Assembly: GCA_018882485.1 (NCBI GenBank)
Contig: VERU01000015.1
Span: 1-14,365 of the forward strand
DNA length: 14,365 bases
Source: Rhodoferax sp.
GTDB taxonomy: Bacteria; Pseudomonadota; Gammaproteobacteria; Burkholderiales; Burkholderiaceae_C
Reading direction: 5' to 3'
Positions 6,443 to 12,246 of the stretch are shown here, piece after piece. The position numbers and the translations under genes were made by a program. The notes beneath the pieces are model-generated. The model saw only the letters and a list, made by a program, of their open reading frames with translations, searched no databases and was not told the DNA's origin. Within the stretch, counting starts at the first letter, position 1. Each line of letters starts with the position of its first letter.

Positions 6443-7525
6443 TCAGTAGCGGGTTGTGATGCGAACGTCGGACGCCGAGACCTGAAGCCCTACGCGGCTG
6501 CCTACACCCGGCAGGGACTGCAACGGGTCACTGAACACCAGCAGCTCGCCGGCCTCGGTGTCCACCACGCTCTCCATGCGGCTGCCGAGGTAGGCCTGGC
6601 GCAGCACGGTTCCTTGTATCAGGCCGGTGCCGGGCTCGCCCAGCTGGATGCGGTGAGGCCGTATCGCCAGCGCGACCGGGCCGTCGGCCGCCTGCGTGTC
6701 CGGCAGATCGGTGAGCTCCAGCGCGCCGCATCGCAAACACCGGCGGCCGGCTCGCGTGAACAATTCGGCATCGATCAGGTTGGCGTCGCCGATGAAGTCG
6801 GCAATGAATCGGGAGGATGGGCTCTCGTAAAGCTCCCGCGGCCCACCCATGGCGGCGATACGGCCTTTTTCCATCACCACGATGCGGTCCGAAACCGCCA
6901 GCGCTTCTTCCTGGTCGTGGGTCACGTAGACCACCGTCAGATGGAGTTCCTGCTGCAGGTCACGGATATCCTGGCGCACCTTGCGCCGCAGCTTGGCGTC
7001 GAGGTTGGACAGCGGTTCGTCGAACATCAGCACCGCGGGTTCCAGTACCAGCGAACGGGCCACGGCCACCCGCTGCTGCTGCCCGCCCGACAGCTGCGAG
7101 GACAGGCGCGCGCCCAGGTCTTCGATGCCCAGCTGCGCCATCTTGGAGCGCGCCTGCTCGATCGCCTGTGCCTTCTTCATGCCCGAGGCAAGGAGCCCAT
7201 AGCACACGTTGTCCAGTGCACTCATGTGGGGAAACAGGGCATACGACTGGAACACCAGGCTCACATCGCGCTGGTTGGCCGATACGCCCGTCACATCGCG
7301 GCCATTGATCCGGATCTGCCCGGACGAGGCCTGTTCCAGGCCGGCAATCAGTCTCAGCAGCGTGGTTTTGCCGCAGCCCGACGGTCCCAGCAGGGTGACC
7401 AGCTCGCCCTGCGCGATGCGCAGATCCAGCGGGTGCAGGGCCACCACCGTCCCGAAACGCTTGACCACCTGGTTGAACTCGACGGCCGGCGTTTCATGGG
7501 CGGGTGCAGGATCGGAAGTGGTCAT
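6443..7525 (-). CDS. ABC transporter ATPase, FbpC/AfuC-like
   Basis: This is the cytoplasmic ATPase that should energise the adjacent permease. It is 360 aa. Motifs are Walker A GPSGCGKTT (from 47), the Q-loop at VFQS (91-94), signature LSGGQQQRVAVARSL (from 145), Walker B VLMFDEP (165-171), D-loop SNLDAKLRR and switch His203 in VTHDQEEAL. A C-terminal TOBE-type domain spans about 285-355 (AIRPHRIQLG). The start at 7525 (MTTSDPAPAHETPAVEF) follows the permease stop by 32 nt with a weak AAGAAG site. The same frame stays open into the permease gene upstream, but that stretch is not protein-like. It is the last gene of the operon. Its paralogues serve iron, polyamine and sugar-phosphate importers, so substrate cannot be told from the ATPase alone. 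Confidence 0.93.
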   Translation of the reverse strand: MTTSDPAPAHETPAVEFNQVVKRFGTVVALHPLDLRIAQGELVTLLGPSGCGKTTLLRLIAGLEQASSGQIRINGRDVTGVSANQRDVSLVFQSYALFPHMSALDNVCYGLLASGMKKAQAIEQARSKMAQLGIEDLGARLSSQLSGGQQQRVAVARSLVLEPAVLMFDEPLSNLDAKLRRKVRQDIRDLQQELHLTVVYVTHDQEEALAVSDRIVVMEKGRIAAMGGPRELYESPSSRFIADFIGDANLIDAELFTRAGRRCLRCGALELTDLPDTQAADGPVALAIRPHRIQLGEPGTGLIQGTVLRQAYLGSRMESVVDTEAGELLVFSDPLQSLPGVGSRVGLQVSASDVRITTRY

Positions 7526-7557
7526 CGTCGGTTCTTCTTGATGAGAGCAGCGTGGGT

Positions 7558-11420: not shown

Positions 11421-11433
11421 GTCAAAGACTCGT

Positions 11434-12246
11434 TTACAGGCGCAATGTGGCGGGCAGGTACTTCGCCATCAGGTCCTCGTAGTAGGGCTTGAGTTCAGCC
11501 AGTACCGGCGGTCTGGGGTTCTTGGAATACAGGTCATACGGATTGAACTTTTGTACCCAGGGAAGGTAAGCCTCGTCCTGGGCATCCGTCAGGTGGCGGT
11601 ACTGGCCCTCACGGTGCCAGGGGTAGAACGAGTGGTAGCGGATCATGTAAAGCCCCGCCTGTGGCAGGCAATCCTTCAGCAGGTGGTACAGGTACTCGTC
11701 ATGCCCCCAGGACATGTGTACCCGGTCCAGGCCGCAGTGCGGCTGGTAAACCCCCTGTTCCGTGTTGTAGCGGGGATCGGCGCTGTCGGGGTTCGCCGCG
11801 AAAAACTCCGGATAGACGATGCGGTCAGAGTGCCGGCAACCCACCGGGAAGGTGTCCCCGACCACCGCCCACTGTGGTTCACCGAACAGGCACAGCACCT
11901 TGCCCAGGTCGTGTACGAAGCCGGTCAGCACGAACCAGTCGGGATGCCCGTCCGCCCGGATCGCCTCGGCGGTCTGCAGCAAATGGCTGATCTGCGGCAG
12001 ATGGATGTCCGGGTCCGACTCGTCGACCAGGGTGTTGAGGTAGTCCAGCGCATCCCAAGGAGACATTTCCCGTTGCTGGAACTGCAGCCATTTCGCCTTT
12101 TTGGCCAGTACAAAATCGTAAGTCTGGTGCTGGTGGTTGGCCCGGTAGAACTCGCGAACCCGGTCGATGCCCGGTTGCGCGTAGTCCCGGTAGGCTGCGC
12201 GGTCGGCGGCTTGTGCCATCAGGGGAGTGGGAGACAGATCGGTCAT
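11434..12246 (-). CDS. myo-Inositol oxygenase (MIOX), non-haem di-iron
   Basis: MIOX oxidatively cleaves myo-inositol with O2 to D-glucuronate. The protein is 270 aa, close to mammalian MIOX (about 285). All six di-iron ligands of the animal enzyme have counterparts: His88 (ISHLLQTAE), His112 and Asp113 (FVHDLGK), His182 (MSWGHDEYLY), His205 (MIRYHSFYPWH) and Asp238 (NPYDLYSK). Lys116 matches the substrate-contacting lysine of HDLGK. LVDESDPD, FGEPQWAVVGDTFPVGC and QPHCGLDRVHMSWGH are near-verbatim family blocks. MIOX is best known from eukaryotes and is patchy in bacteria. It is the first gene of the operon. The start at 12246 has a GGAAG element 5 nt upstream. The glucuronate catabolic genes expected downstream of it in the pathway are not in the window. 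Confidence 0.96.
   Translation of the reverse strand: MTDLSPTPLMAQAADRAAYRDYAQPGIDRVREFYRANHQHQTYDFVLAKKAKWLQFQQREMSPWDALDYLNTLVDESDPDIHLPQISHLLQTAEAIRADGHPDWFVLTGFVHDLGKVLCLFGEPQWAVVGDTFPVGCRHSDRIVYPEFFAANPDSADPRYNTEQGVYQPHCGLDRVHMSWGHDEYLYHLLKDCLPQAGLYMIRYHSFYPWHREGQYRHLTDAQDEAYLPWVQKFNPYDLYSKNPRPPVLAELKPYYEDLMAKYLPATLRL

Follow-up and report, generated by a model that had tools for sequence, protein, structure and literature searches.

A putative operon for import and oxidation of phosphorylated inositol within the trp locus of a Rhodoferax genome

A five-gene cassette within the trp locus

The DNA considered here is a stretch of 14,365 nucleotides (nt), referred to as the window, from contig VERU01000015.1 of a Rhodoferax sp. 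assembly (GCA_018882485.1; 3.2 Mb in 645 contigs, 86% complete and 5.7% contaminated). In the interval between trpD and trpC it carries five complete minus-strand genes encoding a myo-inositol oxygenase (MIOX), a phosphatase of the inositol monophosphatase (IMPase) family, an AfuA-like periplasmic binding protein, a fused permease and the ATPase of an ATP-binding cassette (ABC) transporter. These genes quite probably constitute one operon for growth on phosphorylated inositol, comprising its import, its dephosphorylation and its oxidation by MIOX, as suggested by gene content, conserved residues and recurrence in related genomes.

All five proteins exceed the Pfam cut-offs for their families (Table 1). 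Open frames and sequence bear out the layout described in the initial annotation, with intergenic gaps of 13, 32, 15 and 32 nt from MIOX to the ATPase, and we infer that the five genes are transcribed together as one operon. A scan of the cassette for RNA families returned nothing. On the plus strand of the window, the order is trpE, trpG, an ltaE-like gene and trpD, followed by trpC and ung, all named from their translations by eye and from conserved order. The cassette reads opposite to trpD and trpC, and the starts of MIOX and trpC lie 117 nt apart. The trp locus is broken twice: trpG and trpD are separated by the ltaE-like gene (window 4242-5315), and trpD and trpC by the importer cassette (6443-12246).

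Table 1. Genes of the cassette and its two flanks, with coordinates in the window
Feature	Length	Coordinates	Strand	Remarks
MIOX	270 aa	11434..12246	-	PF05153; no signal peptide by eye
IMPase-family phosphatase	272 aa	10602..11420	-	PF00459; no signal peptide by eye
AfuA-like periplasmic binding protein	348 aa	9523..10569	-	SBP_bac_6; Sec-type signal peptide by eye
Fused ABC permease	649 aa	7558..9507	-	two BPD_transp_1 stretches
ABC transporter ATPase	360 aa	6443..7525	-	PF00005 (ABC_tran) and PF08402 (TOBE_2); ATG start at 7525
trpD, left flank		5352..6395	+	convergent with the five-gene cassette; trpD 85-88% identical in the same place in L024, L025, L027 and L302
trpC, right flank		12364..13158	+	divergent from the cassette; trpC 73-81% identical in the same place in L024-L027, L031 and L076

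The oxygenase and the phosphatase

The window MIOX matches PF05153 with 373.8 bits (cut-off 25) over profile positions 2-248 of 249, and mouse MIOX (2huo) with 302 bits, 141 of 258 aligned residues being identical. All 13 functional positions inspected, covering iron ligands and substrate residues, are kept, and the iron ligands, which had initially been reported as intact, are all six in place (H98, H123, D124, H194, H220 and D253). The enzyme is intact and is predicted to act as an oxygenase on myo-inositol. The phosphatase matches PF00459 (Inositol_P) with 185 bits and the solved inositol-1-monophosphatases 6ib7 and 2qfl with 148 and 144 bits, respectively. Its metal-site motifs GEE, DPIDGT and WD align by eye with those of the solved enzymes, in agreement with the earlier description of them as unimpaired.

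Recurrence of the gene set

When species genomes were scanned for relatives of MIOX, the best 80 of 583 loci were examined, and the 11 best (L024-L034) are all labelled betaproteobacterial. The complete five-gene set stands between trpC and trpD in L024 and L027. It also adjoins trpC in L031, on a contig that stops after the ATPase and leaves the other side unseen, and it is spread over two contigs in genome G792, namely L076 (trpC side, broken inside MIOX) and L302 (trpD, ATPase, permease, binding protein, IMPase and the end of MIOX). In L026, the set is broken off inside the permease. Since the same gene set recurs in other genomes with the same trp flanks, the arrangement is more than chance, and conservation of the genes as a unit, on which the initial reading depended, is found in L024, L027, L031 and G792.

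Outside the trp site, L034 has MIOX and the importer elsewhere in the genome, separated by a PIG-L gene, and its divergent IMPase is encoded on the opposite strand. The PIG-L gene (L034 6505-7374) encodes a PIG-L family deacetylase on the opposite strand and might hint at glucosaminyl-inositol compounds. Five Polaromonas loci among the 11 best carry MIOX alone. At the other 68 of the best 80 loci, mostly labelled Bacteroidota, no importer or IMPase was matched beside MIOX (E 1e-8 and >33% identity; 50 of the 68 read over at least 18 kb, the rest over less), save for one distant ATPase match. Likewise, 12 further MIOX stretches from the same family (two of them <4 kb), three from an order-level sample and two from Polaromonas gave no IMPase, iol or importer match except distant ATPase matches.

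Importer groups and their gene context

A search for the binding protein across 399 genomes of the family found relatives in 158 of them. Stretches were taken around 79 matches and the window, with 34 more added later and kept outside the tree; they are believed to cover the listed matches at about 52% identity or above, together with some of the weaker matches. In a tree of 89 sequences (86 loci and three solved structures), built by a quick method, one group has 23 members (support 91, not starred) and another has 49 (support 98, starred), leaving 14 lone genes. A more careful tree of the 23 separated 17 members, the window's included, from the other six at 100/100; these are termed the inositol group and the sister group.

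The gene contexts of the groups differ sharply. An IMPase gene lies in 23/23 stretches of the group of 23 and genes for G6PD, PGI or transaldolase in 0/23, whereas in the neighbouring hexose group IMPase occurs in 0/49 stretches and these hexose enzymes in 34/49; among the 34 stretches added later, the counts are 0 for IMPase and 23 for hexose enzymes. MIOX, iol genes or a phytase-type gene are also present in 18 of the 23 stretches, and together with the ubiquitous IMPase this supports the initially proposed sequence of import, dephosphorylation and MIOX oxidation. Within the inositol group, MIOX or iol genes are found in 12 of 17 stretches, six having MIOX and six iolB, iolE or iolD; the remaining five have IMPase only, among them L136, which adjoins two IolG-like genes, one over its cut-off. 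The curated models exceeded are those of IolD (883 bits), IolE (377 bits) and IolB (325 bits) in L134 and of IolG (397 bits) in L136. Two IolD matches in the hexose group, 25-26% identical, were set aside as paralogues.

The sister group (L145, L146, L147, L170, L174 and L180) combines, in all six loci, the importer and IMPase with a LacI-type regulator and a protein related to acid phosphatases (TIGR03397 in the one scanned). Five of the six also encode relatives, 78-100% identical, of a 530-aa L145 protein that matches the solved MINPP 7zgf with 227 bits and the histidine acid phosphatases 6rxd and 6rxf with 226 and 224 bits, and that falls marginally short of His_Phos_2 (23.1 bits, cut-off 23.6). 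RHGSR and HAE motifs are present in two sequences of this MINPP-like protein, which has a lipoprotein-like start by eye. The sixth locus, L147, instead encodes a 458-aa protein matching PF13449 'Phytase-like' with 185 bits, for which a search of solved structures gave no match. An IolB-type gene is present in all six sister genomes, and in G405 and G563 the genes iolD, iolE and iolB and an iolG relative lie downstream of the binding-protein gene, at a distance of no more than about 21 kb. The sister cluster reads as a putative system for phytate use, in which a phytase would act outside the cell, the residual inositol phosphate would be imported, and IMPase and the iol pathway would operate inside.

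The ligand pocket of the binding protein

The binding protein matches SBP_bac_6 with 98 bits, and its best solved relative is AfuA (4r72; 305 bits, 147/313 or 47% identical), the binding protein of AfuABC, an ABC importer of hexose and heptose phosphates from Actinobacillus that is also reported in E. coli and Vibrio in the available text of PMC4546632. At this level of identity to a solved protein, its fold seems clear. The transporter, first annotated as a complete AfuABC-like importer, has Pfam matches for all its parts. The same text names the AfuA residues whose mutation abolishes binding and the motif by which its discoverers found homologues (H205, D206 and E229), which is present in the window protein as H234, D235 and E258. 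Of 19 residues listed around glucose-6-phosphate in AfuA (PMC8427247, available text), 15 are identical in the window protein (7/7 phosphate contacts, 3/3 ring hydrogen-bond contacts and 5/9 others), the changed ones being S9, T11, G36 and I186. At position 36 of AfuA, which corresponds to Ser66 of the window protein, Ser occurs in 17/17 members of the inositol group and 6/6 of the sister group, but in 0/49 members of the hexose group, where 48 have Gly and one has Ala.

A pyridoxal-5-phosphate binding protein of the same family, P5PA, is 41% identical to the window protein and, in the portion of PMC8427247 consulted, illustrates that the family can switch ligand yet keep the phosphate site. 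Unlike P5PA, in which D206 and E229 (AfuA numbering) are both Ala, the window protein retains both residues. Its pocket fits a phosphorylated cyclic polyol and carries a fixed difference from the hexose group, with hexose phosphates as further possible ligands. The predicted ligand is an inositol monophosphate.

Exchange of catabolic modules and importer history

MIOX and IolB were not found to coexist in the genomes sampled. In a chosen set of 26 genomes, MIOX occurs in eight and PF04962, the family that includes IolB, in 13 (one of them only KduI-like), and none has both; PF04962 was found neither in the window genome, 86% complete, nor in the seven other MIOX genomes of that set. Across the 399-genome sample, MIOX exceeds its cut-off in 13 genomes and an IolB-type gene occurs in 57, again with no overlap, a result that is not significant (p 0.23). 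The KduI/IolB family misleads when used without a score limit, given that 20 of 77 positive genomes are only KduI-like; one MIOX genome, G756, has such a KduI-like match. An IolB-type gene is present in 15 of the 17 sampled genomes that have this importer group but no MIOX, as against 42 of the 382 other genomes (p 4e-12). The importer is a module with no fixed tie to MIOX; other genomes combine it with the iol pathway. Iol-linked importer cassettes also adjoin trpD, in L134, L140, L141, L143 and L144.

Trees of the individual genes disagree with one another. The window IMPase groups with the IMPases of five other MIOX loci and L142 (98/96), the L034 IMPase falling elsewhere on a long branch, and the window trpD groups, with modest support, with those of three MIOX relatives (92/93). 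The window binding protein, in turn, groups with those of the iol-type loci L134 and L135 (96/90), and the permease with that of L134 (100/100), its nearest among those compared at 78%. Tests that omit L034, and for which the groups were chosen with the first tree already in view, reject the union of all MIOX-linked importers in a single clade (p 3e-76 and 2e-116). Judging from these trees, MIOX and IMPase stand as a pair next to importers of two different lineages at one and the same trp site. This conflict would imply that the pair either gained an importer twice or had one importer swapped for another of the same group, and either history suggests that the pair requires an importer belonging to this group. 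In our view, this is the strongest genetic argument for a shared substrate.

The pathway downstream of MIOX

For the fate of glucuronate, the initial annotation had looked to uxaC/uronate or glucarate genes elsewhere in the genome. UxaC was detected in 0/19 genomes, including the incomplete one of the window, and glucuronate use through UxaC was set aside. Instead, contig C446 of the window genome brings together a uronate dehydrogenase (Udh; 286 bits to a solved one), an SGL-family protein (268 bits), glucarate dehydratase (GudD), galactarate dehydratase (GarD; 853 bits, over cut-off) and a MOFRL/glycerate-kinase-like gene (210 bits against a cut-off of 550). SGL-type enzymes include the lactonases of uronate pathways. 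The lactonases UxuL and UxuF are described in PMC6353982.

GudD exceeds its cut-off in 14 of 24 genomes, narrowly in the window's (829 versus 828.7 bits). Among the MIOX relatives, those of G787 and G791 are over the cut-off, those of G788, G789 and G792 just under it (814-820 bits), and that of G786 is cut by a contig end (458 bits). In the fetched stretches of G786 and G787, GudD, Udh, the SGL protein, GarD and GarL all occur together; in the stretches covered for the other MIOX relatives, part of this set is seen. GarL is over cut-off in nine of 24 genomes, comprising all seven MIOX relatives (G786-G792) and the MIOX genomes G491 and G782, and under it in all 11 importer genomes without MIOX and all three other MIOX genomes. 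KdgD exceeds its cut-off in six of 19 genomes, none of which has MIOX, and the MIOX genomes therefore seem to rely on GarL in their glucarate route. On the supply side, inositol-phosphate synthase (PF07994) was found in 0/19 genomes, the window's included, which makes it unlikely that inositol is made from glucose-6-phosphate, and such production inside the cell was set aside.

Interpretation and alternative explanations

According to the proposed mechanism, the binding protein would capture inositol monophosphate in the periplasm, as a likely product of phytate or phosphoinositide breakdown, and the fused permease and ATPase would move it into the cell. There, the IMPase-family phosphatase would release phosphate and free inositol, and MIOX would use O2 to cleave the inositol ring, yielding D-glucuronate. 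The next steps would be oxidation of this product by uronate dehydrogenase, opening by a lactonase and dehydration by glucarate dehydratase, with a final split towards pyruvate and glycerate that may be performed by GarL in relatives. We infer the ligand, its isomer and the direction of flux. On a broader scale, it seems reasonably likely that a dedicated subfamily of ABC importers for inositol monophosphate completes phytate use in this family, and perhaps in others, by linking secreted phytase to a cytoplasmic IMPase and an exchangeable module, either iol or MIOX-uronate dehydrogenase-glucarate, the window representing the MIOX version.

Several observations weigh against this interpretation. 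No promoter was recognised in a scan of the cassette, and the terminator scan gave only two terminator-like sites, which lie within the permease gene and are below shuffle counts. The phosphatase is below every NCBIfam equivalog cut-off, its best match being inositol-1-monophosphatase (147 of 332 bits). Importer and catabolic genes do not always travel together: G787 (L025, L249) has MIOX and IMPase at the trp site without the importer, and of the 13 genomes among the 399 sampled whose MIOX exceeds the cut-off, just one, the window's own, has an importer recognised as belonging to this group. Conversely, neither MIOX nor IolB was found in G415, or in the 74% complete G437, which has a MIOX-type IMPase with the importer (L142). 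In four of the six sister genomes, iolB lies far off on the same contig (G757, G698) or on another contig (G630, G436). Downstream, G790 has the operon but scores 228 bits for glucarate dehydratase, which is not a clear match; the 86% complete window genome yielded no GarL (25 bits), and the genes on C446 may not be the genome's own because the assembly is 5.7% contaminated. In addition, all the residues of AfuA essential for glucose-6-phosphate binding are kept, so hexose phosphates could also bind.

One alternative is that the importer takes up hexose phosphates like AfuABC, whereas the phosphatase and MIOX act on other substrates and became neighbours by accident of the trp insertion site. 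The 47% identity to AfuA and the 15 of 19 retained contacts favour it; it is nevertheless unlikely, since the hexose-type relatives form a separate group with the contrasting gene context described above, glucose-6-phosphate would be usable without dephosphorylation, and the synthase that could link it to MIOX was found in none of the 19 genomes. We regard as comparably improbable that the importer takes up some other inositol compound, larger or related, such as glycerophosphoinositol, a cyclic phosphate, a glucosamine-inositol or the phosphate of another isomer (e.g., scyllo-inositol). The ambiguity of the sequence as to the isomer and the PIG-L deacetylase between MIOX and the importer in L034 would be in keeping with such a ligand, but the five-gene set contains no phosphodiesterase or glycosidase gene, and the phytase-type genes of the sister clusters would be expected to yield plain inositol phosphates.

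Automatic annotation would instead assign the importer to ferric iron or a phosphonate (2-aminoethylphosphonate). The best NCBIfam matches are indeed to phnS2 for the binding protein (216.8 of 392.75 bits), to PhnU2 for the permease (226.8 of 593.25 bits) and to a ferric model (360 of 496 bits) and PhnT2 (353.5 of 457.7 bits) for the ATPase, but every one of them is under its cut-off, the pocket is of the AfuA type, and no phosphonate family was matched in the 20 neighbour proteins scanned. Both the iron and the phosphonate reading were rejected on the NCBIfam cut-offs and the pocket residues, and are very improbable. An importer of inositol monophosphate coupled to IMPase and MIOX remains the preferred explanation.

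Relation to known systems and significance

Inositol phosphates are a large pool of organic phosphorus in soils, sediments and plant food. A search of the open-access literature, with most subscription papers outside its scope, recognised no description of this gene set or of a bacterial inositol-phosphate importer; in the text available, a 2025 review of gut inositol metabolism names no inositol-phosphate importer and attributes the uptake of free inositol to iolT (PMC12482443). The binding protein shares with AfuA its family and all the listed phosphate and ring hydrogen-bond residues; the system differs from AfuABC in having Ser throughout the inositol group in place of Gly36, in its neighbours (IMPase and inositol or phytase genes) and in its predicted ligand, an inositol phosphate. 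Classical iol catabolism, with uptake by IatA/IatP/IbpA or IolT (available portions of PMC11065229 and PMC12482443), likewise uses inositol as carbon source, and relatives of the window importer adjoin iolD, iolE and iolB; the window would depart from it in importing a phosphate and in employing MIOX oxidation instead of IolG/E/D/B.

The route also has a parallel in the engineered MIOX-Udh pathway for glucaric acid, which leads from inositol through glucuronate to glucarate, and for which a MIOX from Flavobacterium johnsoniae works in yeast (PMC12076931, available text). The window would be its natural counterpart, fed by imported inositol phosphate rather than by inositol-phosphate synthase and continuing through GudD and, in relatives, GarL. 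MIOX is placed under animal glucuronate metabolism in the available part of one review (PMC6353982); if the present interpretation is correct, this enzyme, best known from animals, belongs to a complete bacterial pathway as well. Some proteins annotated as iron or phosphonate transporters would then be inositol-phosphate importers, and phytate users may take up phosphorylated rather than free inositol.

Additional observations

Loci of the hexose group (L148, L150-L152, L164, L165 and others) also carry an RpiR-type regulator, and they probably encode importers of hexose phosphates or of sugars entering metabolism there. The 14 lone AfuA-like binding proteins (L205-L218), for which no permease of this type was matched in the fetched stretches, have Phe at H205 and Asn or Gly at D206, so their ligand probably differs. 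Finally, a ribonucleotide reductase gene (PF02867, 426 bits) lies beside the importer cluster in L139 (10591-14217), with no evident relation to it.

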